A DNA stretch of 64,000 nt, taken from contig NW_026570343.1 in the NCBI RefSeq assembly GCF_019649055.1, forward strand, positions 186,001 to 250,000. The letters are read 5' to 3'. A model generated the notes under the pieces. The model ran no database searches. It was not told the DNA's origin and saw nothing but the letters and a program-made list of their open reading frames with translations. Position 1 is the stretch's first letter; every line of letters starts with the position of its first letter. Position numbers and translations under genes: made by a program. Shown here piece by piece: positions 10,216-41,100 of this stretch. This DNA comes from Paramacrobiotus metropolitanus (lineage: Eukaryota; Tardigrada; Eutardigrada; Parachela; Macrobiotidae).

Positions 10216-10229
10216 GTCCTGGACCTTTT

Positions 10230-18794: not shown

Positions 18795-19313
18795 TTACTC
18801 TGCAACAGCTATCTTGCATTTGTCTACAGTATGCTTACGATCATTTAAAGAAGCCAACATGGCGGGAGGGAATTGTGGTGCCGGGAAAATCTCCCTTAAG
18901 CCATTCAAGTACTCTTTGAACTCCAGTAAGTTAAGCCGAGCGGCGTAGGCCCGGTAATGCGCATCGCAGCACATCTCAGCCGGATCGTTCAGACTAGCTT
19001 CTCTAGTGGAAAAACAGTTGTCGCAGTTTGGGTAACCGTCCAATGGACACAACGGCTTCTTTGGATGGGCCAGCAACTGATGATGCGCGCCATCCCCACT
19101 TTCCGTCATGTCCCTTGCTATAAGGTGGACGACTTCTTCACTGCTCAGGACCGATGGCCCTTGTTTCAAAATGCCGGCCAATTCCGAGCGGTCTTTAACA
19201 CTCAAGTCGCTATCACGGTCTGGAATTACCATCCCACGGGCCGTCCACGGCGCCAACATGCAAGCAAATACCGCAATTTGAACAGACATTTTACCGTCGC
19301 ACAGAAACGACAA
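18795..19313 (-). CDS. Secreted cysteine-rich family protein, divergent member
   Basis: The 172-residue product begins with a hydrophobic segment (AVFACMLAPWTARG) that looks like a signal peptide. It carries the family core LCPLDGYPNCDNC..EMCCDAHYRAY, which aligns with LCPxDGxPxCxxC..CCxxHxAW in the copies at 43436, 52949 and 62993. The usual DPCTGEP exon is not seen; the frame ends in KCKIAVAE. The spacing between the core and CC is longer than in the other copies. A TATAAA-type box lies about 85 bp upstream. The shared upstream box of the family is displaced: the Polinton is inserted about 332 bp upstream of the ATG, and the box resumes only on the far side at 36946. Function unknown; not a family I recognise by name. 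Confidence 0.6.
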   Translation of the reverse strand: MSFLCDGKMSVQIAVFACMLAPWTARGMVIPDRDSDLSVKDRSELAGILKQGPSVLSSEEVVHLIARDMTESGDGAHHQLLAHPKKPLCPLDGYPNCDNCFSTREASLNDPAEMCCDAHYRAYAARLNLLEFKEYLNGLREIFPAPQFPPAMLASLNDRKHTVDKCKIAVAE

Positions 19314-20105: not shown

Positions 20106-23100
20106 ATGGACCAGTTATCCCAACACGAACTAGATGATTGTGCACTTTTAGCAAGTTTGGACGATTGGGTGTGTGAAGACACATTGTCTTCAGCTGAATT
20201 ATCGGACTGTAACACCTCACCGGCATTGGCGGACCGGATTGACGACACCAAAAATGTTACCAATCAAACAGGTGGACGGAAGCCGGTGCAGCAAGACCTT
20301 GAAACTCAAAACCAACCGTTCGACATCGATGATCACGTTACTATCGAGAGCAAAGGCGAAAAGTTTTCCAGAAAATACAAGCTCCATTTCAAGTGTTTTA
20401 CCGTAAAAGTAAGTTTTTTTGCAAACTTATTATTCTTATAAATATTATCATTATTGCTTATTATTATATTACCACTATAGCCACTACAGTTTTCAGATGC
20501 TAATAACAAAGACTTCGAAATGCTGTTTGAAAGTTATTTTCAATTTTAAAATTTCATAATTTTTTGGTTTGCTTTTATAACATAATTATTACGCAGCCTT
20601 GATTGTAACCAGGGACCTACAATCTTGAAGACAAAAGAACGACCACAAGGCTTTACGAAATGATTTGATTAATAATGTTGCAACTACAGTAGCCCGATTC
20701 CATTCATCACTTGAGGTACCGTTGTAGGTTTCCCAACTGGATCATGTCCCCTTTGTGGAAATTCCAGTAGTACTTACCTTTATTTTGGAACATATCCTTC
20801 AGTCAGTTTTACGTGATGTCGGGGACAAAGATTTAGTTCGCCTGCGGATTGATTCCCATTCGTTAGAGCGACCAATTTGGACGCCACCTATTCAACGCTC
20901 GCAACTGGATGTCAGACGATGGATGGACGAAGTTGAAAAGGTACTGCAGTCAAACGACAATTTTGTTCTTGACAACACTTTTGAAATATCTGTACAATAC
21001 ACGGAGTTGCCAAATGGGGGGTGTCGGCGGTTGGTTCCGCAACTGTTATATCGGAAATTGAAAAAGATGAAGTCTGTAGTGCAGATAAAGAACACCGATA
21101 ATATCTGTATGGCTAGAGCATTAGTGTTTGGCAAAGCGTATGCTGACAAGGACAAGAAGCTGATTCGCCGACTTCATCGGGGCAAAAAAATGCTAACTAA
21201 TGAAGCCAAAAAGCTCATAAAACGAGCGAAGCTGACAGAGAAATCCTTCGATCTCATGGATATCCCGTTGTTTGAAGCTGTGCTCCCAGAATATCAGATT
21301 ATCGTGGTCAGTTTAGACCAAGGAAGCAGCATTGTTTACAATGGGAAGTTCAAGGAGCGTCATATAGTATTGCTGCTTTATGGTCACCATTACGATTTAC
21401 TGTTGTCGCTACCGGCTTTCTTTAAAAGATCGTATTGGTGTTACCAGTGCGGCAAAGGTTATTCGGATCGTCGCACTCATCGGTGCAGCAATATTTGTCA
21501 CCAATGCTTGCGAACGAATTGCGAGCGGGATACAACAAATCCTCTACACTGCACTGACTGTAATCGTATATTTTATGGGCAAGGATGTTTCGATCGCCAC
21601 AAAACGGTTCCTAGAAAAGTCGAGGGAAATCGTTGTGCAGCACAGTCAAAGTTTGTTTGGAATGCCAGTGTGTGGTGTCAATGCGGAACCGGAAAGGATC
21701 AAACAACCACCAGTGCGGAGAAATATACTGTAAGAATTGCAACATTCATGTATTACCGGAAAACCATCAGTGTTTCATGAAACCGCACACTGTTACCCCG
21801 GAAGAGCGTGAAAAGAATGAAAATGCTAAGTTTCTTTACTTTGATTTCGAGACCTACATCCAAGATGATGGCCAGTTGGTTCCGAATTTAGCCGTCGTGC
21901 AAGATGATACAGGAACTCAGTGGACTTTTCCTTCTACTGACGAACCATTAGAAAAATGCATAACGGACCCACTGTGCGAATTTTTGATTAGCGAACATCA
22001 CAAAGGGCATTACATCATCGCGCACAATTTTAAAGCGTTTGATGGATATTTTATACTACAGTGGCTTTTAAAAAATGGTGTGACCCCTAAAGTTATCATG
22101 AACGGTGGAAAGATTTTGCAACTGCATGTCCCGGGTTACGATATTCACTTTCGTGACAGCATAAATTACAACCCACAAAGCCTTGCCAAATGGCCCGCGA
22201 CATTCGGATTACCGGACATCAGCAAAGGAACTTTCCCTCATAAATTTAATCGTCGCGAAAATTGGGACCGTGTTGCGCCGTATCCCAGCATGGATGAATA
22301 TGGGTTCCGAACAATGGACAAGAAAGCGCAAGCCTCTTTCAAAGAATGGTACGATGCCGATGTCAAAGCCAAAAGCGGTCTTTTTGATTTTCGTAAGGAA
22401 TTTGTCGCCTACTGCGAAAATGACGTCACTGTCTTACGGACCTGTTGCCAACAGTTTCGCAAACTGTTCATGGAAATCAGCAACGGACTTTGTCCTTTCA
22501 CCTCTGCTCTAACAATCGCTGGACTGTGCAACTTGTACTGGCGCTCCTTCATTCTGAAAGCAAATCAGATCGGTCTGGTTCCGCAACAACGGTTTGCCCG
22601 CAATCGCTTGCAATCGGTCAAGGCTATGAAATGGATTTCATGGATGGAAAACGAAGAAAATTGCGTTATTCAATCTGTGGTCTCCGGCACCGAACAGAAA
22701 ATCGGTCCTTATTACGTGGATGGATACCAGGAGGACACTGGTCACATTTACGAGTTTTATGGATGTTGGTACCATGGCTGCCCTACATGTATGGACCCGG
22801 AGACAGTGCATCCGTTTCGAAACCTACCGATGCGTGACATCTACAAAGAGACGATGGACCGTGAACAGTACTTACGCTCATTGGGTCACCCAGTAACCAC
22901 TGTTTGGGAACATGACTTTGACGCAGACCTTCGCATTGATTCCGAAATGCGCAAGTTCATTAACGATATAAAGATTACCGAACCGTTAAACCCTCGGAAC
23001 GCTTTCTATGGTGGCCGGACAAATGCCGTGCGACTGTTGCATACGGTGGCTGCCGATGAAAAGATCAAGTATTTCGATGTCAACAGCGAATACCCGTTCG

Positions 23101-24432
23101 TCAACAAAAACCGCCGGTATCCGTTAGGGCATCCTATTATTTTAACCAAGAGCTTCCAAAACGTTCGGGAATATTTTGGTTTAGTCCACTGCACAGTGCT
23201 ACCACCGGCAGATTTGTGGCTACCTATTTTACCTTACCGTTGCAACGGCAAGCTGACTTTCCCGTTATGTGCAACATGTGTCAAAGAACAGAACAGCAAG
23301 AAATGTGACCACACGGATTCGGAAAGGAACTGACGGGAACGTGGTGCACACCAGAGATACATGCTGCTATGGATCGGGGATATACCGTCACGAAGATGTA
23401 CGAAGTGTGGCATTACGAAACGTTTGATGATCACCTTTTCAAGGAATATATCGACCGCTTTTTAAAAATCAAGACGGAAGCCAGTGGATGGCCATCAGAT
23501 GTTACCGCGGAAAATGAAAAACGAAAATACATTGCTGATTTTGAAGAACGGGAAGGGGTCAAGTTGGATTATGATAAGGTCAAAGAAAATCCCGGACTAC
23601 GTGCTTTAGCCAAACTATGCCTCAACAGTTTTTGGGGCCGACTGGGAATGCAGGATAACAAACTGAATACCATGTACATTCATGACCCCAAAAAATTTTA
23701 TGAAATGTTATTTTCCGGCAAACACCATGTGCATTCGTGGGATCTTTTTGATGACAACGTCATGCAGATCACATACACCAAAGAAGATGGATTTATCGAG
23801 CAGAATCCGAACACCAATGTTGTCCTGGCCGCGTAAGTTTTGTAAAAACTTTATTCAGCATGGTGAATTTAAGACGATTTTTGCATTAGGTTCACCACAT
23901 GTTGGGCACGACTGCATCTATACCAGTTTATGGATATGGCTCAAGAGCGCCTTTTGTATTTCGACACAGGTGTTTAACTGTAACACAATGTTTTCACGGC
24001 AATTATTTTTATTTTATTTGCTCTGAAGATTCCATTTTCTTTGTGTCGAAACCGGGATGGCCTGACCCTCCTACTGGCCGATTTTTGGGCGATTTAACCG
24101 ATGAACTAAAACCTGGACAACACATTACGCAATTCGTCAGCTTGGGCGCCAAGACCTATGCCTACACGACAAACGATGGACATTCGGTAGTCAAAATCAA
24201 AGGATTCACCATCAATAATCGGGTTAAAGAGAAAGTTAACATGGAGTCCATGATGAATATTCTGCACAAGTCTTGTTGTATTGATGTGCACTATGATGAT
24301 GTTATTAAACGCATCAAGTCTCAGCTTATTCTATGCAATAGTGATGTAACTAAGCGTCTGCAAGTGACGTATGATAAGCGGCGCATTACGCAAGACTGGA
24401 ATACTGTTCCATACGGATATACCGTTGAATAG
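20106..24432 (+). CDS. Protein-primed family B DNA polymerase (Polinton PolB), with introns and two frame breaks
   Basis: This replicative polymerase copies the linear element by protein priming. Exon 1 is 20106-20408 and exon 2 starts at 20728. Short introns lie at 23833-23889 and 23970-24028, the last splitting the catalytic YFDTDS motif between its D-T and D-S codons; exon 4 is 24029-24432. Paired-cysteine zinc motifs lie near 21440-21780, the exonuclease signature YFDFET at about 21838, a second exonuclease region IIAHNFKAFDGYF near 22020, KLCLNSFWGRLG near 23610 and a C-terminal DKRRITQDWNTVPYGY. Frame breaks occur near 21635 and 23320 with no intron to explain them, so either the gene is dead or the assembly has indels. 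The start was chosen because exon 1 splices in phase 0 into the polymerase frame and follows the palindromic promoter. Confidence 0.85.
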
Positions 24433-24434
24433 AT

Positions 24435-25019
24435 TTATTGAGTAGCAGGAAACTGCTGTATCATTCGACCAACAAAATTTACTGATATTTGTATGTCATG
24501 CATTTCTTTCAATCCCAAAAAGTTGCATTTTCCCGATGGAAAGAGCACAGCAGTACACCCAGGCAATTTTATACGTAAACCGCTAAACAGTTCAGGAGTA
24601 TATTCCAACTTGTAATGTTGGCTGAATTTCTCAATATGTATACGCGCACCAAAATCATGAGTGACAACAATATTAACAATTCGAAATCCTGAAACGATAC
24701 AACGGTACCCAATTGATTGAAGAATGCTGGTAAACTTGTCGACCAATTCTCTGGCAGCAGATTCCGAACGAGCTCCATTGACCGTGATTTTTCCATTGGA
24801 ATATAGTTGGCAATGTGCTTTATAGGGAGAGAGAATACGAAGGAGTAAGCCGGAAAATTTGCGGGGAATATACTGCGCCATCGGTACTTTCTTTTCAATC
24901 TCCTTCAGATTGAGGATAGTGTTTAAATCCGCAACGGCAACGACATTCATGATTTTTGGCATGGCAGTAGAACCACAAACCGAACCGAATAGCTTTGCGC
25001 AGTGTTGTTTGGGGCACAT
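24435..25019 (-). CDS. TATA-binding protein (TBP) homologue encoded by the Polinton
   Basis: The 194-residue protein consists almost entirely of two TBP repeats. Repeat 1, about residues 24-104, includes NVVAVADLNTILNLKEIEKK, YIPRKFSGLLLRI and the SNGKITVNGARSE turn. Repeat 2, about 112-190, includes FRIVNIVVTHDF, YTPELFSGLRIKL and FPSGKCNFLG. The positions of the four DNA-kinking phenylalanines are F55, Y73, F145 and F160, so three are kept and one is tyrosine. There is no long N-terminal tail. TBP nucleates transcription pre-initiation complexes on promoter DNA. The gene is convergent with PolB (3 bp between stops) and 27 bp downstream of the 25047-25397 gene, so it is firmly inside the element. 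Origin by capture from a host or a large DNA virus is inferred. The frame is intact. Confidence 0.85.
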   Translation of the reverse strand: MCPKQHCAKLFGSVCGSTAMPKIMNVVAVADLNTILNLKEIEKKVPMAQYIPRKFSGLLLRILSPYKAHCQLYSNGKITVNGARSESAARELVDKFTSILQSIGYRCIVSGFRIVNIVVTHDFGARIHIEKFSQHYKLEYTPELFSGLRIKLPGCTAVLFPSGKCNFLGLKEMHDIQISVNFVGRMIQQFPATQ

Positions 25020-25046: not shown

Positions 25047-25397
25047 CTAGTCCTCAAGATTGACCACTTGGGGAACATAACGCTCCAGTAAACGGCACTT
25101 CTCCAAACCCTTGGCATAGAAAGTTAGCTTACTAGGACGGCCAATACGGTTAAACATGTCTTCCAAGGCAACCGTCACTTGATTGTGTCGATAATCACCA
25201 AAGGTGCTCCAGAGAAGTCCATGGGAATGCTTGGCCTGTTTCTGCAACTCGCGAGCGTGTTTACCGGCTGATCGTGGTAAGCTGAAGGTGTACTGCCCAC
25301 TGTCATGTTTTTCTGGGCACGAGAAGGCCAGCTGTTTGATATATGGTACCTTTTCAATTATAAACCAATCAGCATCTAAAACACATGGCAGAGCCAT
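25047..25397 (-). CDS. Polinton accessory protein of unknown function
   Basis: From the ATG at 25397 the product is 116 residues; the frame is open further upstream but runs through the palindromic promoter, so the internal ATG is preferred. The C-terminus reads FYAKGLEKCRLLERYVP followed by QVVNLED. I have an impression, which I cannot verify, that short proteins with a KGxEK...NLE ending accompany PolB in other animal Polintons. No signal peptide or membrane segment. It is 27 bp upstream of the TBP-like gene and shares a bidirectional promoter region with the PC4-like gene at 25574. Confidence 0.55.
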   Translation of the reverse strand: MALPCVLDADWFIIEKVPYIKQLAFSCPEKHDSGQYTFSLPRSAGKHARELQKQAKHSHGLLWSTFGDYRHNQVTVALEDMFNRIGRPSKLTFYAKGLEKCRLLERYVPQVVNLED

Positions 25398-25456
25398 GGT
25401 CAAGACTAGACTGAAATACACAACTCGTTTATCACTTGGCAACAGCGTTGGTTTAT

Positions 25457-25495
25457 GGTACCTGGTGCCAGGTACTTTACCTGGCACCATGTACC
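25457..25495. promoter_or_regulatory. Inverted pair of GGTACC-type palindromes between divergent genes
   Basis: GGTACCTGGTGCCAGGTAC at 25457-25475 is followed after TTT by ACCTGGCACCATGTACC (25479-25495), the same motif in inverse orientation. It is about 60 bp from the ATG at 25397 (-) and 79 bp from the ATG at 25574 (+). The two half-sites fit a bidirectional promoter or dimeric operator. Confidence 0.65.
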
Positions 25496-25573
25496 ACAGT
25501 TGACCTTCAAACATTTGTTTTACAACTTGCGTGCGCTCAACATACACTTCATTTGAGTTCAGTTCTGACAAAA

Positions 25574-26400
25574 ATGGAACCGTCTCTAAAACGCCGCCGT
25601 TCAGACTCGAAGCCTAAAATGCCACTAGTCAACAAGACTAAGTGCAGTGTCGAGAAGACTCATCCTCGTTTAGCCTTCACAGAGAACGGTCGTCCTGTGT
25701 ATCGTCTGGGCAACGAGAAATTTGTGCATGTCGATTATCAGTGGGAAGAAACTCGAATTTTTATTGGTGAATGGAAGGAAGGACCGCCCGGGAAATGGAA
25801 GCAGACGTGGGCGAAAACGATAAGCCTTACCAAAAGAGGATTCATGCGCTTGGTATCGTTACTGCTGACGGAAAAAGCCGATCTGGATCATTCCAATGGA
25901 AATTTACCTCCTTTATTCTTACTGGACCGAGGGGTGTACTTCAACTGGAGCCGTCCTAACGTGGCCAGCTTTCGCCGCTATCAGCGGTCTCAGGAAGGTG
26001 ATTTGATGCCCACGAGAAACGAGATATCATTGAACGAGAAGTGCTACGAAGCATACGGGATTTTACTCTCTTCAAACATATTGTCAGTGTGGACGAAATC
26101 GTTGAGGATGTGGATGATGACAAAAAAGGTCTTTGTCATGAGAAGTTGTGCGACGCTATTATTGATGCTATGGTGAAACTAGTTCATGAAAGATGCCCTG
26201 ATTTCCGGGACGTGTTAACGTATACGGAATGGAAAGATGCTGTGCAACGTCTGTTGGATGCTCGTTTTGTGCATGGCATTTTGTTTGGTTTTGAAGAACT
26301 GAGCTTTAAGCAAGCCTTAAGTTTGGATGTGGTGAAGTATTTGGATACACATGAAAATCAAATCCGTATGCAAGTAAACTGCTCTCTGAACCAAGTTTAA
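25574..26400 (+). CDS. PC4-like transcription coactivator / ssDNA-binding protein, with one frame break
   Basis: The N-terminus is basic (MEPSLKRRRSDSKPK). Then, at about residues 40-105, come RPVYRLGNEKFVHVDY, TRIFIGEW, PPGKWKQTWAKTISLTKRGF and RLVSLL, in the order of the PC4/SUB1 fold: a beta strand with a glycine turn, a strand, a 'GKxGISLT'-like segment and a helix. PC4 binds single-stranded DNA and bridges activators to the TBP/TFIIA complex, so its company with a TBP homologue is suggestive. The frame shifts near 26020; the following frame (to 26400) gives a helical, acidic domain with SVDEIVEDVDDDKKG. A tiny intron is a less likely alternative. The start ATG lies just 3' of the palindromic promoter. 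The PC4 assignment is motif-based and needs a profile search. Confidence 0.5.
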
Positions 26401-26494: not shown

Positions 26495-28333
26495 TCATTT
26501 CATTAATCGTTGACATATCTGACGGAGAAAAGATCCGTCAACTATTGCTGTGTTGATATCAAAAAAAGAATTTACATACTGACACACCATCTTGTCGTTG
26601 CTTGTTCGATTATCGGTAAATAAATGTACAATATTAGTGAAAGATTCGCCGCTAGCGCGTCTCAAAACAAAAAATAAGCAATATTGACCACACACGGTAC
26701 TATATTCGGACTGAAACTGTTCGTCTTGACAGACAATAGTATTATTCTGAGCAAGCATAGAGAAGTGCTGAGAATACGTTTCCAACGCTTTACCATACGA
26801 ATCAAACACTTCCAAGATTCCCGCTTGGGTTTGTAGCAAAGCAATCCAGTGTGCGCCATTTTGGTCAGAGGGGTCCGTGTTAACTACACATGCTCCAGGG
26901 TACGGGGCTAAACATGGCGGAACTTGGTCACTGGCAAACACACCGCGGAACAGCTGGGTGGTAACAGGATTTCCTGCAGACAGTGGTGAATTTGCTCCGT
27001 GTTCATGTTGAAAATCCGCAATCAACTGGCGATGTTGATTAATTTCGATGATGCTGTCATAAATCAGCATGCACACCATCATGATTGTTGTCGTCAATGG
27101 TTTAGCAAAGGAAACTGATACACTCAGATTTCCTTGTTTTATCAAGGTCAAAGGTCCGCGGCCAGTATGTCCTGGTGTAAGGTCAAAACCAAATACGGTA
27201 TATCCTTGATTATATTCGGTGCGGTTGAACGGTAGTCCGCCTTGCAAACTCGGTCGGTATCCCAGAGTATCAAGCAAACCATCGTAGCACTCCAAGGATA
27301 AGTTGTGTTCAAAATCACTTATATAGGGTTTGCTAGGGAAGCTCTGACCATCCACTTCCACACTAAGTTGTGTAATGTTGAAATGTTGAAAGTTAAACGG
27401 ATTCTTTTTGATGGATCCGTGAAAATCTTCGCTATCGACAAATCCAACGAACACGACTTTGGGTATTTGCCCAATCTGTAGATTGCTGACCACGGTGCTT
27501 TGCGTCTTTTGCGGAATGTCCGACACGCGCATAACTATCCGCTCAACATGATATTTGACGGTTTTCTTTAACAATTCACCAGCAACAGCTGTCAGAAAAT
27601 CCGGTGAGGGAATGTAGCGTCGGATAGACAACCGAGCATTGCGAATGAAGGGCTTAAACGTTTTCGTGGCATCTTTATCCCACACACGCAGGGCAAATTC
27701 AGGGCGGCTGACTACCAGACGGATGTTCACAGGAACCCCTGTGCACAGTGGTTTGCTTTGGTCAAACAAGTCCGAAAATAGTCTTCCAGAAAGTTGAACA
27801 TATTGTCCGGTTTGAAATAAAGCCTTACGGCTCTTTTCTCCTTGATTAGACGTCTCATCGTTATGTTTGGCGGGCGTGTCCAAATAGAATGCAGCCGAAG
27901 TCAACTGGCTACTTTGAGCCTCTTTGCTATGCGATAGCAATGACTCAAAGTATGCTCGGTACGGATAGAACGTGGCGGCATCCGAGATCAGTCGATTGGC
28001 TACCGTTACATGACAGGATGAGAAGAGCGAGTGCAAGAAATTATTGACCGGTGCCACCCCATCATCCGCGGTTACCAATTCCCAGTCACCGGTAGTTTTA
28101 CGCACTTTGATGCCCACTTCCAACTCCAATATCATATCTGCCAAACTGAGCAGACCAGCCGTACTAGGTGGTATAAAGAAATTAATGTCACCAGCGGATC
28201 CATTGTCGGTCAAAATAGTTGTAGGGTTCAGTTTCTCGTGTTCGGTACGCCAGCGGTCGGTCAATGTAGCCGGCAAGGCAAACAACTGATTTTCCAGCTG
28301 CATGGCCGGTTCGGAATGTTCCATCATGAGCAT
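26495..28333 (-). CDS. Major capsid protein continuous with adenain-like protease
   Basis: The single 612-residue frame has two parts. Residues about 1-435 look like the double-jelly-roll major capsid protein of Polintons (opening with FFIPPSTAGLLSLADMILEL and ending near IYDSIIEIN). Residues about 455-612 are a C5 (adenovirus-type) cysteine protease: FRGVFASDQVP at the start, catalytic His in GAHW (495), Asp in FDSYG (511), a Gln region near 541 and Cys in VCGQYC (548). These are normally separate neighbouring genes. An ATG at 27006 in another frame, about where a separate protease start would lie, hints that small indels may have merged two overlapping genes. The protease would mature capsid proteins. 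It is the last gene of the minus-strand virion cluster, 9 bp after the minor capsid gene. Confidence 0.8.
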   Translation of the reverse strand: MLMMEHSEPAMQLENQLFALPATLTDRWRTEHEKLNPTTILTDNGSAGDINFFIPPSTAGLLSLADMILELEVGIKVRKTTGDWELVTADDGVAPVNNFLHSLFSSCHVTVANRLISDAATFYPYRAYFESLLSHSKEAQSSQLTSAAFYLDTPAKHNDETSNQGEKSRKALFQTGQYVQLSGRLFSDLFDQSKPLCTGVPVNIRLVVSRPEFALRVWDKDATKTFKPFIRNARLSIRRYIPSPDFLTAVAGELLKKTVKYHVERIVMRVSDIPQKTQSTVVSNLQIGQIPKVVFVGFVDSEDFHGSIKKNPFNFQHFNITQLSVEVDGQSFPSKPYISDFEHNLSLECYDGLLDTLGYRPSLQGGLPFNRTEYNQGYTVFGFDLTPGHTGRGPLTLIKQGNLSVSVSFAKPLTTTIMMVCMLIYDSIIEINQHRQLIADFQHEHGANSPLSAGNPVTTQLFRGVFASDQVPPCLAPYPGACVVNTDPSDQNGAHWIALLQTQAGILEVFDSYGKALETYSQHFSMLAQNNTIVCQDEQFQSEYSTVCGQYCLFFVLRRASGESFTNIVHLFTDNRTSNDKMVCQYVNSFFDINTAIVDGSFLRQICQRLMK

Positions 28334-28342
28334 TGCTATTGT

Positions 28343-28729
28343 TTAGAAAAAGTCCGGAATGCTGGTTGGCGGAATACGTTTAATGCGATGTACTTTACGT
28401 TTAACACGTTGTTTCTTCCGAACGCCTTCTCCTTCTTGCGAAACTAGGCGTTTACCAATCGCCGCTCCTGCTTCTTTAATAACCCCGGTTGCCGCATCTT
28501 GCAAGTGAGGGGTGGCGGCTTCTAAGGCTGCTTTGGCATGAGGCGCGGCTTTGCGTAAGATCGGTTTAGCAAAACCAGTAATCTTTGCCAATAAATTTTT
28601 CAAAATTTGAGGAAATCCAGAACCGTTTTGCAGTGTTCCTCGATACCGAATAAGGGCACTTCCACCCGTTTGATTCACAAACACGTTGTCATACCGCCGA
28701 GGGTCGGGTACATAAGCTACTAGTGGCAT
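28343..28729 (-). CDS. Minor capsid protein, pVI/pX-like
   Basis: The 128-residue protein has a glycine-containing N-terminal part (RGTLQNGSGFPQILKNLL), an alanine/lysine-rich amphipathic middle and a strongly basic C-terminus (RKKQRVKRKVHRIKRIP) with nuclear-localisation character. That composition and its place between penton and major capsid match the small pVI/pX-type proteins of adenoviruses and Polintons, which are processed by the protease and disrupt membranes or bind DNA. It is tightly packed: 2 bp after penton, 9 bp before the capsid gene. Assignment by context and composition. Confidence 0.6.
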   Translation of the reverse strand: MPLVAYVPDPRRYDNVFVNQTGGSALIRYRGTLQNGSGFPQILKNLLAKITGFAKPILRKAAPHAKAALEAATPHLQDAATGVIKEAGAAIGKRLVSQEGEGVRKKQRVKRKVHRIKRIPPTSIPDFF

Positions 28730-28731
28730 CT

Positions 28732-29697
28732 TCAGTACAGTCGTTGAGGACGGAAGTGCAGCTTGACCAATGACTTTCCCGTTTGGAATTTAGCGTCGTC
28801 ACCTAGGTCATTAGCAATAGTCAGATGAATGGTCTCAAAATGTTGGCGCAATACTGGAACGTAATGGGGAATATCGAAGCGTGCTTCCACGATCTGGTTG
28901 ACCTCCCCTCTAATAGGTACAGCACGCAGAAACTGCGCCGCGGTATCGCCAATCAAGCTATAGTCCGCAACGTCGCTGTACAGGAACAAGCTTTGATTTC
29001 CCAGTAAAGTGTTAACGGGGCGTTCCGAAAGAAAAGTCGTCAGTTTAGGGGGAGGTGCTTTAGTGAAAAATGATAGGTACTTACTACGACTTGTTTTCGA
29101 TTCAAATGGAAACGGGCCGCGTGCATTAGAATGAATTTCCTCTGGGACGTCCGGTTTGTATTCACTTTGCTCAAATCCTAATATTTTTTGCAATGTAACG
29201 GATCCTGGGGGGAAGGAAATTGAAACACGATCGTTACCGATTGAAAGTTTAACGCGATGATTAGTAGCCGTCAGGAACTGCAAACTGAAGGCCTTGTTGT
29301 CATGTAAAGCACTCTTGTCTTGATGAACCACATCGTCCACCATGTACGGCCCAATTACCGGTACAAGATTATTGATAGTTTCCAATAATAAATCGGCATT
29401 TTTATAGTTTCCTGGCGGAATGACCAAAATCTCTTGGTGAACTACATAGTCCGCGCTGGTGATAAAGTCGTCCTCTTTCTTCACACGAAATTCTTTAACT
29501 ATATCCAAGTGTATTTTCTGTTCAGTTGGAAGAGTGTAGAATGAATTTAGATACTGCAGTTCCACCAGCGCCATTTCCCACTTTCCCTTGAGGGTAATGG
29601 GGTGTTTTAGTTTTGTGGTCCAGTTTGATGGAGTGTTTGTCGTGTCAGTAGCGAAATCGCTTGGTAGCGTTATGTAGAATGGGGCTCCCTCAAACAT
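28732..29697 (-). CDS. Penton (minor capsid, single jelly roll)
   Basis: The 321-residue protein opens FYITLPSDFATDTTNTPSNW, then TTKLKHPITLKGKWEMALVE, the recognisable N-terminus of Polinton penton/minor capsid proteins, which form the fivefold vertices. It continues with beta-rich sequence and ends LVKLHFRPQRLY. The start overlaps the integrase 3' end by 28 bp. No lesion seen. Confidence 0.8.
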   Translation of the reverse strand: MFEGAPFYITLPSDFATDTTNTPSNWTTKLKHPITLKGKWEMALVELQYLNSFYTLPTEQKIHLDIVKEFRVKKEDDFITSADYVVHQEILVIPPGNYKNADLLLETINNLVPVIGPYMVDDVVHQDKSALHDNKAFSLQFLTATNHRVKLSIGNDRVSISFPPGSVTLQKILGFEQSEYKPDVPEEIHSNARGPFPFESKTSRSKYLSFFTKAPPPKLTTFLSERPVNTLLGNQSLFLYSDVADYSLIGDTAAQFLRAVPIRGEVNQIVEARFDIPHYVPVLRQHFETIHLTIANDLGDDAKFQTGKSLVKLHFRPQRLY

Positions 29698-30722
29698 GAT
29701 GTTAACACCCAGGAATCGTGTTCGGGTCCGTATCCTAACCAGCGCACCAGAGCTTTCTTTCCTCGTCGTTTAATAACAAAATCAATCGCGTATTTTTTGT
29801 CTTTTGGGTTTGAAACAAGGGACAGTTCGTGTTCGTAAAATGTCCCTTTAATAGATTCGCCTTGATAATCTCGCACCCGGTACACAGGAACTTTATGCGG
29901 AATAACTTGATGAACGTAGAACACTTCTTCCTTAAACCGGTAAGTGTAACCCTTTTCTACTTTTGTCTTGTGCACCGCAATGCGTACAGCGTCACCAACC
30001 TTGAAACGAGGTTGTCTTAACTTTTGATTTTTGTACAAAGCATTGTACACGCGCAAAGAGTTGTCCTGGCTTACATCTACTGGCCGCAGACCGTGAGCAC
30101 GATGTGCAGAATGATTGTACGAGTACACAAGATCTTGCAACTTGTCAATATAACGTGCAGATAAACGTGATCGGAACAGTCGAAACATTCGTGTCTTGAT
30201 AGTACGGATCACCCGCTCCGCCATTGCACATTTTACATCTTCGTTTTCCGAAGTAAAAATCATGATATTCTTTTCCTTCAGAAATTTCTTTACGGTTGTG
30301 TTCAACATCTCCGTTCCTTTGTCGTACTGCAACTTTTCAGGCTCGCCCAGATCAATAAATGCCTTGCTTAACGCTTCCTTCGTGTCAGTTCCAGTCTTGG
30401 TTTTTAACGGTTGCACACTCAATTTCTTGGAGAAACAATCAATGACGAAAAGTAAGTACTTATATCCATCGTTTTCTTTTGCATATTTAGCCAAGTCAGC
30501 CAGATCAGCTTGGAACTGCTGTTGCAGGTTGGTGACAACTATGCGGTTGCGCGGAAAGCGCTTCCGCGACTCCTTGTTGACAGTGTACGCATCGATTTCC
30601 TGCAGTATTTCCTGTGCTTTCCGTTTGTTGGCTCTTGTCTTTAAGCTGTTTCGAAATCTTTGGACGCCGCCAAGACCGCCGGGGTCCCGCGGGTTGAGAT
30701 ATTTCTTCATTAGCTTCTCCAT
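29670..30722 (-). CDS. Retroviral-type integrase with C-terminal chromodomain
   Basis: The 350-residue enzyme inserts the element DNA. The catalytic core has D73 (FQADLADL), D134 (QYDKGTEM) and E169 (MAERVIRT), a DD35E spacing. A beta-rich DNA-binding region with FKVGDAVRI follows, and the C-terminus YAIDFVIKRRGKKALVRWLG then YGPEHDSWV is a chromodomain with the expected aromatic residues. In retrotransposons such domains steer integration to methylated histone marks. The start at ATG 30722 has a basic leader. The 6-bp duplication around the element is what this enzyme class makes. The frame is intact. Confidence 0.88.
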   Translation of the reverse strand: MEKLMKKYLNPRDPGGLGGVQRFRNSLKTRANKRKAQEILQEIDAYTVNKESRKRFPRNRIVVTNLQQQFQADLADLAKYAKENDGYKYLLFVIDCFSKKLSVQPLKTKTGTDTKEALSKAFIDLGEPEKLQYDKGTEMLNTTVKKFLKEKNIMIFTSENEDVKCAMAERVIRTIKTRMFRLFRSRLSARYIDKLQDLVYSYNHSAHRAHGLRPVDVSQDNSLRVYNALYKNQKLRQPRFKVGDAVRIAVHKTKVEKGYTYRFKEEVFYVHQVIPHKVPVYRVRDYQGESIKGTFYEHELSLVSNPKDKKYAIDFVIKRRGKKALVRWLGYGPEHDSWVLTSCLREPHST

Positions 30723-30834: not shown

Positions 30835-31491
30835 CTACCTTTCTGGACCGTACGAGAACGTAATTTTCGGTTTGGGTCGTCTACAGATATATCGGATTGT
30901 CGCTTTTGTCCTTTTAAGGGGGTAGAGAGAGGAAACAATGGAATTCGTTTTTGCTTGCGCGGTTTTGGATGCTCTTCTTTGCCTTTGCGTTTTTTTCCTT
31001 GGTAGGAAAACTCGCTGGAAAAAAGTGCTAAACGCTGACTTTTGCCGGCGATTGTTGATCCGTATCGTCTGAGAGGTTTCGTTTTGACCTTTCACAGGTA
31101 ATGACTCTGGAAACAATGGCAGGCGTGGTAGCTTCTGGGATGTGTCGCTGACTTCCTCGTCAGTCCTTTTTCTTTTCCGGCCTTGACTTCTGTTAAATTC
31201 TTGAGGGTCTGCTAACGGTGTTGGTTGTGTAACAGGATCAGTGGACAGCTCCAGAGGATTTTCGTCCGGTAAGGCTTTCTGCTTAAGTGCCAGGAAACGC
31301 TCTAGAATGCTTGTTAGTTGGTCGGCCTTTTGGTATTCGTTTAGATCGTTTCGGTGAAGCGTTTTGGCAATAAGCTCATCTAAGGATACAACTGGTCTAT
31401 CTTCAGGCGGTTCTTTGTTGATTTGCAATTTTTCATGCATTCGGTCTTCCATGATACGTCGAGGAACAATGTAGTACTCATCCATTTCCAA
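30835..31491 (-). CDS. Polinton accessory protein, basic C-terminus
   Basis: The 218-residue protein has an acidic/helical N-terminal third (MDEYYIVPRRIMEDRMHEKL, then YQKADQLTSILERFL) and a long Arg/Lys-rich C-terminus. It overlaps the next upstream gene by 14 bp, which suggests co-expression. I associate a pair of small ORFs of this kind upstream of integrase with animal Polintons/adintoviruses, where they are thought to be virion components; this is from general memory and unverified. Confidence 0.55.
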   Translation of the reverse strand: MEMDEYYIVPRRIMEDRMHEKLQINKEPPEDRPVVSLDELIAKTLHRNDLNEYQKADQLTSILERFLALKQKALPDENPLELSTDPVTQPTPLADPQEFNRSQGRKRKRTDEEVSDTSQKLPRLPLFPESLPVKGQNETSQTIRINNRRQKSAFSTFFQRVFLPRKKTQRQRRASKTAQAKTNSIVSSLYPLKRTKATIRYICRRPKPKITFSYGPER

Positions 31492-31804: not shown

Positions 31805-32506
31805 TTTGGAAGTGCTGAAGAACCGCGATGCAAATAAATCCTCATCTGTTCGTGTGGAAGCACATGGGAGCGTATCCGTAAATAGTCTGGGCAGGTTGAC
31901 CTTAAGTCCAATATAAGCGGTTGGTAGGATTGCGAAGTAACTTTATTATAGGCATCCACAAGGTGTTTTAATCCCGTTTGCCTAGCCAAAAGTGCTATCT
32001 GATTAACATCTCTGACATTTTTAAAAAGTACCAAATATTGCAAATTCAGGGTTATATCCCGCATGCTTTTCCTTGCTTAAATAGGTTTTGCAGTAGAACA
32101 ATAACTGAAACATTTTTATGGTGAATGCCACGTGTGAAAAGGTCAGCGCATCGCACATCCTGGCAAATGTCGGTAGCCAGGTCGTCGATGACCACCAACG
32201 TCTGCCGATTTGTATCAAGCAATTCCAAAGTGCTGAAAAGTTCGTCCAAACCCTTAATGAATTCAATAATAGGGATTGTAGATTGGAGAGTCTCAAAGCT
32301 TTTTTGCCAGGCCCCATAACAGTAAATAATTTTTCTGGTACTTTATCAAAAACATGATCTCGTTGTTCGATTAAAGAGAAAACAAATTGTGACTTTCCCG
32401 ACATTGTAGGACCGCAGACGGACATACCAAACGGTGCGCAAAAGCGCGGATACTCTTTTAATGTGTTATACATCTTACAGGCAATGGACTGCACTGCTTC
32501 ATGCAC
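31789..32506 (-). pseudogene. FtsK/HerA-type genome-packaging ATPase, broken in three frames
   Basis: The first frame holds the Walker A motif in SVCGPTMSGKSQFVFSL. A second frame (32249-32052) holds the Walker B segment TLVVIDDLATDI and continues to VLLQNLFKQGK. A third (32064-31789) holds the conserved tail beginning MRDITLNLQYLVLFKNVRD. The order is correct and only two frame breaks, near 32300 and 32060, separate the parts; the second lies in an A-rich run. The family pumps DNA into capsids. As read, no functional protein can be made, so the element is either defective or the assembly has indels here. Confidence 0.8.
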
Positions 32507-32524
32507 AAACTTGAATATTCACTT

Positions 32525-33418
32525 TTATGAAAAAAACAGCTTGATGACCTTTCTAATTCCAGTTCGACATATGGGACAATTTTGAACTTTTACTGCACAA
32601 GACAGACAACATACTGCATGACCGCATGGATCGAATACCGCTGTTATATTCTGTGCAATACATATTCGACACTCTTTGTACAGATCACTTTCTTCATTAT
32701 TCTCCGCTTTTTTCTTCACCGAATCCTTGATTTGCTGTATGGCCTCTCTTAATTCCTCGACGGTTTGAAAACGTTTGACAGGTTGTTGACGCTTTTCTTT
32801 TAGGGCTTGCACAATATGCGTGTAATGGCACCCACTGTTCAACGCTGACATAACAATGTACTCGTCATGATCGTCTTCGTCTTCTTCAAAAATCCACCTG
32901 TTACGCTCCAAACCATGCAGGCGTTGAACGTCGGAGATAAAAGCTTGACCTTTCTGCTCTATTAGGTGCGGACACTCTGGTGAAAACTTTGCATGCTTGG
33001 TCCACGGATCGTCATCAGTCTCCCAACGTTCGATGCGTTGCCCACATGAAAAGCATTGCGCACAGTCACCCATTTCCAGAGAAAAAAAACCAGCACTGGC
33101 AAAATCTTTAGGGTGCTGAGCTAAATGATCAGGCCAACTGGCAAATGTACTAAACCGGTCCCGGTACTGTCGCATTCGAGGCACATAAACATCCTCTTCC
33201 TTAATACCCGCCACGAACGTACAGCCAGGGCTAACTCGCCTGTGTTCGAACAAGGGATTGTCGCCGATAGCCCACTGGGCGAGACAGCATTTACAGGATA
33301 CACATTTAACTCGATCGTCAATTCCTGTGTATACGAAGCCAGCCTCAGCTAATGAATACGGTGAAACAATTGCTAGAGGCCAGTGATTAAACGTTCGTAG
33401 ACGCTTTTCCAAATTCAT
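32525..33418 (-). CDS. Inhibitor of apoptosis (two BIR domains plus RING)
   Basis: The 297-residue protein has BIR1 at about residues 5-70 (zinc ligands C39, C42, H59, C66), BIR2 at about 88-155 (C122, C125, H142, C149), a helical linker and a C-terminal RING at 250-284 (ECRICIAQ..DPCGHAVCC..CPICRTG). IAPs of this layout bind caspases or their antagonists and ubiquitinate them; insect baculoviruses use such proteins to keep cells alive. It is the most upstream gene of the minus-strand cluster, 18 bp before the ATPase, and divergent from the membrane ORF at 33495 with a 76-bp AT-rich spacer. The frame is intact. Confidence 0.9.
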   Translation of the reverse strand: MNLEKRLRTFNHWPLAIVSPYSLAEAGFVYTGIDDRVKCVSCKCCLAQWAIGDNPLFEHRRVSPGCTFVAGIKEEDVYVPRMRQYRDRFSTFASWPDHLAQHPKDFASAGFFSLEMGDCAQCFSCGQRIERWETDDDPWTKHAKFSPECPHLIEQKGQAFISDVQRLHGLERNRWIFEEDEDDHDEYIVMSALNSGCHYTHIVQALKEKRQQPVKRFQTVEELREAIQQIKDSVKKKAENNEESDLYKECRICIAQNITAVFDPCGHAVCCLSCAVKVQNCPICRTGIRKVIKLFFS

Positions 33419-34049: not shown

Positions 34050-34439
34050 TCACAAATATGGAAACCAAAATCCACCCCACTCAAGCTCATTGGTCGGTTG
34101 CGATAGTTGATTCAATCGAGCCACATTTTGCATGTAACCGGTACCACGCACATCGCAAATATACGCGCATTTTCTGCTTCTCAGAGCGTGCTCATACCAC
34201 ACATCGAGACTACGTTCCCAAAACACCAGCTCCAGCCCACAAGAAAAACACTTTGCGTAATGAACGGCATTAGGTGTGTAAAAAAAACCAGCCTCAGCTA
34301 AAAGAACTGCACCTGCTCGATGATGTGGGTGACGATTACGCCACACCTCAAAACTTTGCAGGCGCGAGGCAAATGTTCGGTATTCTGGACGTGAAACTGG
34401 GGTATCTGATGAGAAATCTTGTATGAAACTCATGCTCAT
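34050..34439 (-). CDS. Solitary BIR-domain protein
   Basis: The 129-residue protein has one BIR at about residues 20-95: RLQSFEVWRN.., AEAGFFYTPN, then CFSCGLELVFW, a histidine in WYEHALRSRKC and the final cysteine, the C-x2-C-x16-H-x6-C zinc pattern. There is no RING, so it cannot act as a ubiquitin ligase by itself and might work by sequestering caspases or IAP antagonists. It is divergent from the leucine-rich-repeat gene at 34645 across a palindromic promoter. A second in-frame ATG at 34433 is also possible. Confidence 0.8.
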   Translation of the reverse strand: MSMSFIQDFSSDTPVSRPEYRTFASRLQSFEVWRNRHPHHRAGAVLLAEAGFFYTPNAVHYAKCFSCGLELVFWERSLDVWYEHALRSRKCAYICDVRGTGYMQNVARLNQLSQPTNELEWGGFWFPYL

Positions 34440-34644: not shown

Positions 34645-35130
34645 ATGCCTAGCTTGTCAAAAATGCTTAACGGTTTAGATTATCTCCGAACTCTGAATTC
34701 CGACGTTACTGAAATTATACTAGACGGTCGTTGTGTACAGGAAGATGCCTGGGTCGAATTGTCTCGGTTTCAAGAACTGGAAAAGTTCAGCGCTATTGAC
34801 TGTGGCATTCGCAGCCTCCTGGGTTTTCCGCTACTGCCGAAATTGCGTGTCCTTGTCTTGCATGATAACCAGCTGGATGAATTTACCGTACTGCAGCACA
34901 CATGTCCTGAACTGCAACGTCTGGGAATTGCCAACAACTTTGTGTTTTTCCCATCCCAGCTGGAGCCGCTGCGCCACCTACCAAAGCTGGTATCCCTAGA
35001 TGTTGAGGATAATGACGTATGCAACATCCTACGTTTTGAAGTCTACATGAGCCGTAACTTCCGAAATGTCAAGAGACACGTGGTAGATTTCTACGACTCG
35101 GACAGCGATGACGACACCGGCGCTAACTGA
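34645..35130 (+). CDS. ANP32-like leucine-rich-repeat protein with acidic tail
   Basis: The start at ATG 34645 was chosen because upstream codons run into the promoter. The 161-residue product has four or five LRRs (ELEKFSAIDCGIRSLLGFPL, LPKLRVLVLHDNQL, CPELQRLGIANN, LPKLVSLDVEDNDV), an LRR cap region and the acidic C-terminus FYDSDSDDD. That architecture, a short LRR solenoid capped by acidic residues with 'LxKLxxLxLxDN' and 'CPxLxxLxIxxN' repeats, resembles the ANP32 (pp32) family of nuclear regulators of chromatin, RNA export and apoptosome activity. The acidic tail is much shorter than in animal ANP32. It is a paralogue of the LRR gene at 35507. The function inside the element is inferred only. 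Confidence 0.65.
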   Translation: MPSLSKMLNGLDYLRTLNSDVTEIILDGRCVQEDAWVELSRFQELEKFSAIDCGIRSLLGFPLLPKLRVLVLHDNQLDEFTVLQHTCPELQRLGIANNFVFFPSQLEPLRHLPKLVSLDVEDNDVCNILRFEVYMSRNFRNVKRHVVDFYDSDSDDDTGAN

Positions 35131-35506: not shown

Positions 35507-36010
35507 CTAGTACGTGTCTACAATATCGTCATCAACACTGTACGATTCCAAACGTTTACAAAAATAGTCCATCAAGAAAAGCTGCGGTGTGTACCGTGGC
35601 CAGTAGCGTTCCCAGACCGGGTTTCCAAACAAGTCCAGGTGTTTCAGGTTCTGCAGGTCCATCAGCGGTAGGAACGCATGCTTCTCACCAAACCAATTGT
35701 CTGCCAGGGAGAGCTTTTCCAGATTGGGGCACATTTCGGATAAACGGGACAGGCAGCCGTGCATTAGCAAGTAGTTGTCATTCAACACCAGGGTACGAAG
35801 ATTCGGGAGGTATGGTAAGGCACTCAAGTTATATAACTCACAGTTCCTCATGCTAAGCGTATGTAAGTTTGGAAACCAAGGCAACGTCTCGAAGTCACGA
35901 CTTCCATTAACAACTTCAATACGCCGGCCGTCCAGGTTAATAGCTGTGGCTGTTAACGGTAGTGAACACAAATGCTCATAAGCACTATTAACTTTGGAGG
36001 AAAACGACAT
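35507..36010 (-). CDS. ANP32-like leucine-rich-repeat protein, second copy
   Basis: The 167-residue protein has the same organisation as the one at 34645: an N-terminal helix (YEHLCSLPLTATAINLDGRR), LRRs LHTLSMRNCELYNLSALPYL, LPNLRTLVLNDNYL, MCPNLEKLSLADNWF and LQNLKHLDLFGNPV, then a cap and an acidic end (SVDDDIVDTY). 'CPNLEKLSLADN' and 'NLKHLDLFGNPV' are close in style to ANP32 repeats 3 and 4. It is divergent from the zinc-finger gene across a palindromic promoter. The two copies are very different from each other, so duplication is old or capture was independent. Confidence 0.65.
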   Translation of the reverse strand: MSFSSKVNSAYEHLCSLPLTATAINLDGRRIEVVNGSRDFETLPWFPNLHTLSMRNCELYNLSALPYLPNLRTLVLNDNYLLMHGCLSRLSEMCPNLEKLSLADNWFGEKHAFLPLMDLQNLKHLDLFGNPVWERYWPRYTPQLFLMDYFCKRLESYSVDDDIVDTY

Positions 36011-36310: not shown

Positions 36311-36685
36311 ATGGAGTCTAAGAAGTTTCCATGTAGTAAGTGCTCAAAGTCCTATACATATTACCATGACATGAAGCGCCACCATAAAGAAAAACATGTC
36401 CAGTCCAGTGTTATGCCTTGCCCATTTTGCCAACGCCGCGTGCAGAGTCGTTGGCTGCTACGTCATCAAATGTCCACCTCTTGCCATACCGTACGCTCGA
36501 TTCCCAATGAGACTTCTATGGTAGCTGCGCCCATCGTAACCACGCATGAAATACATACTGACACAGCTTTCTTTCCTGATTCTGATACATGTTTCGTATG
36601 TCCGATTTGTAGCGTTGGTTTTGGTAATGCACGTGCGCTTAACGACCATTTACTGATTGCTCAGTGTCGCTATAATGGATATTAA
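36311..36685 (+). CDS. C2H2 zinc-finger protein
   Basis: The 124-residue protein has a classical finger CSKCSKSYTYYHDMKRHHKEKH, a second, CPFCQRRVQSRWLLRHQ, ending in a distal histidine, and a C-terminal third, CPICSVGFGNARALNDH. Spacing is C-x2-C-x12-H-x3/4-H in the first. It is probably a DNA-binding regulator and is a candidate to recognise the element's own promoter palindrome. It is the last gene before the right terminus. Confidence 0.8.
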   Translation: MESKKFPCSKCSKSYTYYHDMKRHHKEKHVQSSVMPCPFCQRRVQSRWLLRHQMSTSCHTVRSIPNETSMVAAPIVTTHEIHTDTAFFPDSDTCFVCPICSVGFGNARALNDHLLIAQCRYNGY

Positions 36686-38187: not shown

Positions 38188-41100
38188 CTAGGAAATATCC
38201 GCCCATATATTTCCACCTGGATTGGCCACGACACGACATTGCTTATATTCTGGTTCAGTATGACAGCAGTCGCACATTGCTCCTTGACCAGCGTCACATC
38301 TCGAGGTGGGAAACGTAGGACATGACAGCTCCTTGTCTTTCCTCCAGGCAAACGGGTCGGGAGTGGCTGCAAATGCGTAGCATACTTGACTTTAATGTTA
38401 ACTGTATGTTAAATTATCCGCGAATTCTGAAGTGGTATCGGTGTGTGAGGCGACTCGGCGTGCGGTTTGTGGAGTTGAAAGTCACCGGCATGGCCGGAGG
38501 TGCGCAATTCCAGCTGAGGGTCTTACCTGCCGGTACAGACAGCTCACTGCCGGCACCCTCCGCCACTGCACGATTTCTTCGCCCCCAAACAAACCCTCTT
38601 TGCGTAGAAATTCGGTCCGGATAGGGTAGCAGGTCGGATGTAACGCTCGACGCAGTCGCTCTTCCATCTCCCGGCGCGCTGAATCATCTCCTTCGGTAGC
38701 CGTTGTGACGCAGCCTCGGTTGCCGCCCCGATGCGGAAGCTGTGTGTGCTGATCCGCGCGCGGTCCGGGTGATCGTACAGCAGGGTCTTCAGGATCCGGT
38801 CGACAGTCGCACGTGTTAGGAACTTCCCGTTCTGGTAACGGAAGAAGGGAGTGGTGATGCCGCCCTGCTTGATCCGAAGGCGGTGGAAGTCCGCAATGGC
38901 GCGTACTGGACAGATGGACCGATTGGTGGCGGTTAGCGTTATTTTTGTCCCTGTAGCGCTCTGATCGGTTTTGGTGCGTTTCAAGGAGACGACAGCAGTG
39001 TTGCCTGCAATCGTCACGTCTCGGAGGAGAAGGGTGGAGGTGGCGTCGAACGTGCAGCTAGACTTCGAAGCAATCTCGCTGACACGTAGGAATCCGAAAA
39101 ACGCCACACAGAAGGCACACCAGATCATGATGGCTTCTTCGGCGTTGTCATGCGTCGTAAGGCGAGATTTCAGCGTGCGCATCGTGTCCAGCGTAATGGG
39201 CAGCCGACGGTCGGGGTTCGGTCCGCGCAGTCTCTTGAAGCCGCTCACCGCGCGCACGACCAAGTCGTCGGCGGTGGGGTTAAGCAGACCGGCTTCCCGA
39301 TGACTGTTGTGTATCTCTGCGAGGTATACTTTCATGGTTCGGTAGGCTGCGTTCTCCTCGTACAGGGAGGCTATATACGCGGCAACAGTAGACGGGATGG
39401 CTGGCAGTGATGCAAAGCCATTTGCGGCGCAGAACTGTACGAAGCGGGTCATCGAGGCCTTATATGTGGCTCTGGAGGATCCGGAGATGTGGGCGCTGAG
39501 GAGCTGCTGCAGGGTACCGCTGCGCGATATGTTTCCTGCGGGCTGGGAAAGATGTCCGGATGGGGCGTAGGCGTGTTGAGTGCTGTCGGCGCGAGTGTTC
39601 TGAACCGAGACATCTGAAACCGAGATAGCGCGTCAGCGATACCGTTATCAACGCCCGGTACGTGCTTGAGCGTCAACGTTAGGTTATTAGTGGCCGCCGC
39701 CCACGTCATTCTCCGCATTAGATCGAGAACACCCGGGCTGCTGGAGCGCAAGCGTGCCCATGCCTCCACAGCGCCGGCGTTGTCGGTGTGGAAGATGACT
39801 TTCTTCCGGCGCAACTTTTGCCCCCAAACAATAACGGCGAGCAGGATGGGAACCATTTCCATGTACTCAATTGAAGGGGAGACTCGCAACAGCCACTCCG
39901 GCCACCTGGACTGGAACCACTCGCCGTTGAGGTAGGCTCCCAAGCCCAGCGTGGCGGACGCGTCTGTGTAGAGGTGCAGCACATCGGAAGTTGTCCAATC
40001 TGGCTGCAGGAAGGAGGCCGTTCCGTTCCATTGGGGCAGGAAGTCCCTCCACCAGTCGAGATCGAGCCGGAAGTCCGTGTTGATGGACACACGCGGCCGC
40101 CCGTGGGATTCTGCCAGTAAGCGTATCATTCTGCGGGTGAACAGCCGGCTGGAAGGTACGCATTTGGACGCGAACGTCAGGGAGCCAATGAGGCTCTGTA
40201 GCTCCACGAGTGTGCAGATGGTCTTGTCACGCCAGCTCTTGAGGGTGGTCAGGATCTCCGCCAGCTTGCCGGCTGGTAGGCTCAGCGTCTGCTCGCATGA
40301 GTCAAGTTCAATGCCCAGGAATGTCAGCCGGGTCGCGGGCCCTACGGTCTTGTCGACTGCTAGGGGAACCCCGAGCTCGCTGCACACTTCCTGCATGGAG
40401 ACCATCAGTAACTCGCACTCACCGCTCCCGGGTTTGCCAACAAACAGAAAGTCGTCGACGTAGTGGAGTAGCGAGCTGAGGAGGGCTCGTCTTTGTACAC
40501 ACCAATGCACCGCCGTTGAAAAGAACTTGAAAATATAAGGGGCTGAGCGGCAGCCAAACGGTAATACTACGTCAAAGTAGTACTTACCGTCGAGCTGATA
40601 TCCGAGGAGATTCCAGTCTGCTTTCCTGACAGGTATCAGTCGGAACGCGGACTTGATGTCCATCTTGCCCATTGGTGCTCCCTTACCAGCGATCGTCAGC
40701 AGTTTCACTGCATCGTCGACAGAGCAGTACTAAAGAGGCATTTCCCGGCCGTCTATGTGGTCGTTCACGCTTAGTCCGACTGGTTGCGACAAATCCAGGA
40801 TCATGCGGTGGCCTCCGTCTTTCTTTGGTCGGCATCCGAGTGCGTTTACCACGAAGAACGGCAGCGGAGGTCTTGGAGACGGTCCTACAGAGTGTCCTGC
40901 GGCAACTTCCTTCTGTATGCTACGCTGCAGGGCGTCGTGGTGGATCCGTGCGGATAATGAATTCTTTGTATGACGTGCGAACTGAGGTCCTCTGTACCGG
41001 ATATCGGCGCCAGTCCGTATGGTTGTGGTGATGAAGCGACACAAACTGGCGTCGGGATGATCGGCAAGCAGTTTCGCAAACGCATCAGCACGCAGAGGCG

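Follow-up and report, generated by a model that had tools for sequence, protein, structure and literature searches.

Few proteins of archaea and eukaryotes are as conserved as TATA-binding protein (TBP). The locus described here lies in a 64,000-nucleotide stretch of the genome of the tardigrade Paramacrobiotus metropolitanus (the window), and it raises the question of why a gene for such a protein should sit within a Polinton-type mobile element, and whether it gives the element promoter-recognition machinery of its own.

A TBP gene within a Polinton-type element

The 194-codon open reading frame (ORF) at 24435–25019 matched the TBP family PF00352 in two stretches (E = 8.5e-35; 118.9 bits, cut-off 22.9). 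The match rules out a chance ORF and confirms a genuine two-repeat TBP; no other family reached E ≤ 0.1 in the Pfam scan. Among PDB chains, 35 of the 37 matches at E ≤ 1 were TBPs or chains containing one (best 1.2e-22), the two non-TBP matches ranking last (E = 0.88 and 0.91), and a structure model predicted the TBP saddle fold with confidence. Three of the DNA-kinking positions are phenylalanine (F55, F145, F160) and the fourth is tyrosine (Y73); we take these to be the equivalents of yeast F99, F190, F207 and F116, respectively. The sequence-only reading had described a 194-residue frame of two TBP repeats with this same set of kinking residues, and profile search, structure model and residue assignment all bear it out. 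It had also placed the gene 3 bp from the polymerase stop. The adjacency holds, the distance does not, as the gap between the stop at 24432 and the TBP ORF is 2 bases and the two genes are convergent. The gene is intronless. Its true start is probably at 24962 (M20) rather than at the start of the ORF, since residues 1–17 have a pLDDT below 50 in the structure model and in many relatives the first residue is the Met that corresponds to M20.

Judged by its polymerase and integrase, the element that hosts this gene is a degraded Polinton/Maverick-type element, with the following features in the window.

20923–24432, (+): DNA polymerase B (PolB) of organellar/viral type, broken into four frames
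24435–25019, (−): element-encoded TBP, two TBP repeats
25047–25514, (−): the “HGLLW” gene, directly upstream of TBP, likely start 25397
25457–25495, no strand assigned: two GGTACMTGGYRCCAKGTACC-type palindromic repeats between the HGLLW start at 25397 and the PC4 gene (inverted repeat I3)
25574–26176, (+): PC4-like transcription coactivator gene with a broken frame; its two halves look alike by eye
26495–28333, (−): probable major capsid protein (by position only) with a C-terminal adenain-like cysteine protease
28343–28729, (−): small protein, ORF only, no family; by its position we assume a possible virion core protein
28732–29697, (−): ORF only, no family; by its position presumably a possible penton or minor capsid protein
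29670–30722, (−): retroviral-type (rve) integrase
30835–31485, (−): predicted ORF without a known family
32021–32473, (−): packaging-ATPase-like fragment, Walker A motif by eye, without a Pfam match
32525–33418, (−): IAP-type protein, two BIR domains and a RING domain
34050–34439, (−): single-BIR protein
34645–35130 and 35507–36010: two small LRR_9-type genes (Pfam), one of them acidic-tailed
36311–36685, (+): C2H2 zinc-finger protein, with two palindrome copies upstream of it

The PolB assignment comes from matches to PF03175 in frames 2 and 3 (4.6e-39 and 7.4e-8), with frames 1 and 4 unmatched by this family in the Pfam scan, and that of the integrase from PF00665 (4.7e-11, 43.3 bits against a cut-off of 32.6); a chromodomain match within the integrase (PF00385, 0.015) fell below the cut-off. 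For the protease part of the capsid/protease ORF, the Pfam match was likewise below the cut-off (PF00770, E = 0.0037), and the S273R protease structure 6lj9 matched at 0.0041. The capsid part had no sequence match, and its single-sequence AF2 model was unusable (pLDDT 32.8). Searches of IMG/VR confirmed no relatives of the capsid/protease ORF or of the integrase. The packaging-ATPase-like fragment is 38% identical over 34 residues to an ATPase-like ORF found beside a divergent TBP copy elsewhere in the genome (locus L010). The IAP-type (PF00653, 3.9e-40; PF13920, 1.8e-11) and single-BIR (PF00653, 8.1e-15) proteins are possible apoptosis blockers, and the zinc-finger protein (PF13894, 1.9e-9) is a candidate regulator.

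The window copy has open frames for TBP, integrase and capsid/protease and broken ones for PolB and PC4; of the ATPase-like gene it has a fragment. Some of the frame breaks may be assembly or sequencing errors, as the host's own TBP gene also carries a frame slip, inside its first repeat, in this assembly. No terminal-type inverted repeat was recognised within 14000–46000, and the window copy may have lost its ends.

Elsewhere in the window, frames at 38544–42433 and 7754–10610 look DIRS-like by eye, with a tyrosine-recombinase match just below the cut-off at 38544–39452 (PF00589, 2.8e-5). Four small cysteine-rich, possibly secreted proteins at 18795–19289, 43008–43436, 52455–52949 and 62487–62993 resemble one another by eye; a Pfam scan of the first gave no match.

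Recurrence, neighbours and selection

The genome (170 Mb in 533 contigs) holds at least 152 merged TBP loci, host gene included, in two combined searches, and at least 114 merged integrase-related loci, the window's own included. Of the 152 TBP loci listed, 86 have a related integrase within 12 kb, against approximately 2.6 expected by chance, and these pairs fall into three fixed layouts. In group A (66 loci), TBP is downstream of the integrase on the same strand, 60 of the loci having a gap of 4.5–5.6 kb; in group B (14 loci), TBP is on the opposite strand, always 1.6–2.2 kb from the integrase; in group C (6 loci), TBP is upstream on the same strand, always at 2.5–3.1 kb. For groups B and C, the Polinton assignment is by integrase proximity. 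Among the matches listed, the other 66 TBP loci, which include the host gene, have no integrase nearby, 28 of the 114 integrase loci have no TBP within 12 kb, and 6 of the 27 integrase loci in the 37–40% identity class do have one. TBP is thus a recurring cargo, carried by many but not demonstrably all related elements, a recurrence that the sequence-only reading had not seen. The view that the gene lies inside the element, rather than being a host pseudogene inserted into a single element, is upheld by this pairing; recurrence beside integrases, together with purifying selection, rules out a single-copy host pseudogene.

Selection was measured on 30 loci with an open TBP frame: L003, L010 and 28 of the 30 best TBP matches (L013–L042), from which L019 and L042 were excluded for internal stops. 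Of 435 pairs, 357 were used, and 78 were set aside as dS was not computable or ≤0.02. Median dN/dS was 0.226 at dS 0.02–0.2, 0.142 at 0.2–0.5, 0.143 at 1–2 and 0.115 above 2, where dS is near saturation; the single pair falling between the 0.2–0.5 and 1–2 classes gave 0.114, and the closest pairs reached up to 0.7. Open TBP copies are therefore under purifying selection, in a set made up of frame-keeping copies only, and the pattern fits selection while the elements move and decay after insertion.

The genes around TBP recur with it. In L013–L042, the 30 best of 150 listed TBP matches, which include the window (L013) and describe its nearer relatives, the HGLLW gene adjoins TBP in 30 of 30, the PC4 gene is present in 29 and a convergent PolB in 28. 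The more divergent L010 retains a C-terminal HGLLW piece just upstream of TBP, with the ATPase-like ORF as its other neighbour and no PolB within the 3.2 kb examined.

HGLLW relatives are 167–229 residues long and begin at a Met equivalent to residue 40 of the window ORF, hence the likely start at 25397; the C-terminus of the window copy is shortened by comparison with these relatives, the longer of which have a Cys/His-rich C-terminus. Neither the window ORF nor its relatives gave a Pfam match over the cut-off or a convincing PDB match. An Rpb6-like subunit was considered for 25047–25514 and rejected, its match (PF01192, 0.056) being below the cut-off and absent in the three relatives scanned. 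In L020 and L023, HGLLW and TBP read as one frame of 355 and 321 residues, respectively, and L016 is among the copies in which the two frames overlap.

The gene two away from TBP is, by profile comparison, a PC4 homologue. Eleven of 12 aligned members matched PF02229 at E ≤ 0.01 (best 1.3e-8), three of five relatives scanned passed the curated cut-off, and a profile of the gene found a human PC4 chain (1.7e-5). The broken ORF in the window, 200 residues against 279–298 in its longest relatives, had no Pfam match, and a weak PDB match of this ORF was discarded.

The intergenic DNA holds repeats of its own. Seven copies of the palindromic 20-mer GGTACMTGGYRCCAKGTACC occur in the window at ≤4 mismatches, against none in five shuffles, at 19915, 25457, 25476, 34502, 34541, 36121 and 36156. 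All are in the element region, between 19915 and 36175, and all are intergenic if HGLLW starts at 25397; the pair at 25457–25495 overlaps the 5′ end of the mechanically called HGLLW ORF. These repeats are possible regulator or origin sites. In several other element families, the gap ahead of HGLLW holds palindromic repeats of another kind, as judged by eye.

The sequences upstream of 15 element genes did not yield an established common promoter motif. TATTTAA lies upstream of three of the 15 (integrase, the second LRR gene and the zinc-finger gene) against 0.19 expected; having been picked post hoc, the motif is not accepted as promoter evidence and serves only as a lead.

Origin and DNA-facing surface of the element TBP

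Phylogenetic analysis used 63 rows: 10 tardigrade element loci, 30 of 38 listed homologues (7 shorter than 150 residues were excluded, plus P0017), 10 cellular TBPs (7 of the best 120, with those of the host, human and Encephalitozoon), 4 of 5 IMG/VR sequences and 9 of 80 archaeal loci. The element TBPs and the 30 homologues formed one clade of 40 rows with 100/100 support, apart from the sampled cellular, archaeal and IMG/VR viral TBPs. Joining the clade to the host TBP was rejected by the AU test, marginally (p = 0.034), and joining it to the IMG/VR viral TBPs was not (p = 0.102). Monophyly of the 10 tardigrade element TBPs alone was also rejected (p = 0.011), as other homologues lie among them. 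A long branch leads to the element clade, and the tree software flagged possible long-branch attraction. Single-sequence and alignment queries of IMG/VR confirmed no relatives of the element TBP, and viral matches in a structure search were 8–19% identical among the 50 matches listed.

The host's own TBP gene (C4:406165–406662; L001 and L002) is canonical and apparently intron-split. An annotated gene of the species, a “TATA-box-binding protein-like” record, matched the genome at 97% identity over 117 of its 131 residues; of its two top-scoring places one was an element copy on contig C60, and the gene is probably element cargo. This record bears on a possible but somewhat doubtful account of the origin, which is compatible with any of the functional readings below: that the elements long ago took up a cellular protein outside the present sample, either a divergent TBP such as that of a protist or a TBP-related factor such as metazoan TLF/TRF2. 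Divergent cellular TBPs do exist, in Giardia for example according to the literature text available, and the tree was sampled without TLF/TRF2 and divergent protist TBPs; yet the one Paramacrobiotus record among the 38 homologues matches an element copy.

The DNA-facing floor of the saddle separates the element clade from other TBPs. In yeast numbering, six positions taken as DNA contacts were changed in the alignment rows of the clade: F116 to Tyr (39 of 40 rows), S118 to Asn (40 of 40), V122 to Thr (39 of 40), T124 to Asn (40 of 40), V213 to Asn (38 of 39) and T215 to Leu (37 of 39). At these positions the 23 rows of cellular, archaeal and viral TBPs never have the clade residue, and across them the floor positions are invariant with one exception. 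F99, F190, F207 and the two central Asn, N69 and N159, are kept in the clade. At positions that contact TFIIB, the E186 equivalent is Glu in 6 of 39 clade rows, while those of E188 and L189 are kept in 37 and 28 of 39, respectively. A change made in concert and then frozen would be expected of a new, conserved DNA target but not of drift.

Proposed promoter recognition and its alternatives

We propose, with a probability of roughly 60%, that this is a Polinton-type element in which TBP is a standing promoter-recognition gene for the element's own, probably late, genes, acting through host RNA polymerase II. The protein would be made early from a host-type promoter, and would then bind and kink a core-promoter sequence unlike the host TATA box. 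With E188 kept, L189 mostly kept and E186 usually lost, it could recruit host TFIIB and RNA polymerase II, assisted by the PC4-like coactivator and perhaps also by the linked HGLLW protein. Element genes such as those for capsid and integrase would then be transcribed selectively and probably late, and host regulators of TBP would be bypassed. That the element brings part of its own promoter-recognition machinery had been suggested from the TBP gene; the suggestion is strengthened by a PC4 homologue two genes away, missed by the sequence-only reading and present in 29 of the 30 best loci, and by the clade-specific DNA-facing surface, from which a promoter action may be surmised. A more far-reaching version, in which an old and widely spread element lineage has a private RNA polymerase II promoter code, its TBP floor re-set once and then frozen, and the TBP accompanied by a tandem PC4 and by HGLLW, is tentative, and we would give it a little less than an even chance.

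Known viral systems offer precedents of varying closeness. Late genes of beta- and gamma-herpesviruses are transcribed by host RNA polymerase II from a TATT box bound by a viral TBP (BcRF1/ORF24/UL87), according to the available text of PMC4893493. An own TBP, an altered core promoter, host polymerase and late genes together make up the principle proposed here, and by analogy with these and other viral TBPs the element TBP probably selects element promoters. The herpesvirus protein is only ~10% identical to TBP (PMC4893493, same text) and is one of six viral proteins needed (PMC7498053, in the part available), whereas the element TBP is compact, near-canonical and accompanied by PC4. A UL87-named model ranked 48th in the viral structure search with the element TBP.

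The TBPs of giant viruses (Nucleocytoviricota) are likewise virus-encoded, with a divergent TFIIB contact, and the accessible text of PMC7221094 reports that almost all TBP-bearing viruses in one study also had TFIIB, and that TBP and TFIIB of other dsDNA viruses are thought to be an orthogonal pair. The window element differs in that a Pfam scan of 18 of its ORFs found no TFIIB; it has PC4 instead. Mirusviruses are a further case of large DNA viruses with TBP as a common gene, present in 59% of genomes in the text available of PMC10132985. The four IMG/VR TBPs in our tree (L043–L046), probably of the mirusvirus kind, keep the cellular floor and group with cellular TBPs, unlike those of the elements. 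Cellular eukaryotic TBPs (PF00352; human, yeast, Encephalitozoon) were ~27–32% identical to the element TBP in structure matches, from which the element clade is set apart by its six DNA-facing changes, the usual loss of the E186 equivalent, and its intronless, element-borne genes.

With Polintons/Mavericks and adintoviruses, the element shares PolB, an rve integrase and a protease-like domain. The open-access literature searched, as far as its text was available, yielded no TBP or PC4 as Polinton cargo: of the papers pairing Polintons with “TATA-binding protein”, some (including PMC10132985) placed such proteins in mirusvirus-type elements rather than Polintons and another concerns vertebrate transposable elements, and those pairing them with “TBP” concern algal or giant viruses. 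For two surveys of such viruses (PMC11071308, PMC11071296), a term search of the main text found neither TATA nor TBP, and the main text of a tardigrade transposon survey has Maverick once, and TATA and virus never (PMC11071193). What appears to be new here is that a virus-type element bearing a TBP of its own is an animal Polinton, and that this TBP has a re-set floor and PC4 as a partner.

TBP and PC4 might instead serve replication or packaging and have no role in transcription: the TBP fold would bend the element's DNA at its ends or origins, and single strands would be coated during replication by the PC4-like protein. PC4 binds single-stranded DNA and has been implicated in repair, replication and transcription according to the literature text available, TBP is convergent to PolB in 28 of the 30 best loci, and palindromic repeats lie between the genes. 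We nevertheless consider this unlikely: the duplex-kinking aromatic positions are retained (three Phe and one Tyr), the sole confident relatives of the element TBP are transcription factors, and the L010 TBP keeps its HGLLW piece and ATPase-like neighbour with no PolB in the 3.2 kb examined. Host shut-off, where the protein would block the TATA boxes of host genes or act as a decoy titrating host TFIIA, Mot1, NC2 or TFIIB, is a quite improbable account. A TBP with an altered floor could still hold such partners, given the retention of E188 in 37 and L189 in 28 of 39 rows, but a pure decoy would not need a floor that was re-set and then stayed almost invariant over 40 sequences, and the linked PC4 gene points towards activation. 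That one element lineage recently captured the host TBP or carries a pseudogene of it, although such captures are generally known from large DNA viruses, is scarcely credible given an apparently intron-split host gene that is 86–90% identical to the best 120 of 7932 cellular TBPs and 27% identical to the window TBP in alignment, the 100/100 separation in the tree, the AU result (p = 0.034) and the many open copies under selection.

Promoter recognition by the element TBP thus being our preferred reading, the clade is a natural set of TBPs, changed in concert at six floor positions and housed in selfish elements at many sites of one animal genome, in which the acquisition of a new promoter specificity by a TBP becomes testable. 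A small element would encode its own core-promoter recognition, which in the literature found has so far come from large DNA viruses, and it may represent an orthogonal RNA polymerase II promoter system. If the more far-reaching version is true, a small element using host RNA polymerase II would run an orthogonal promoter set inside animal nuclei.
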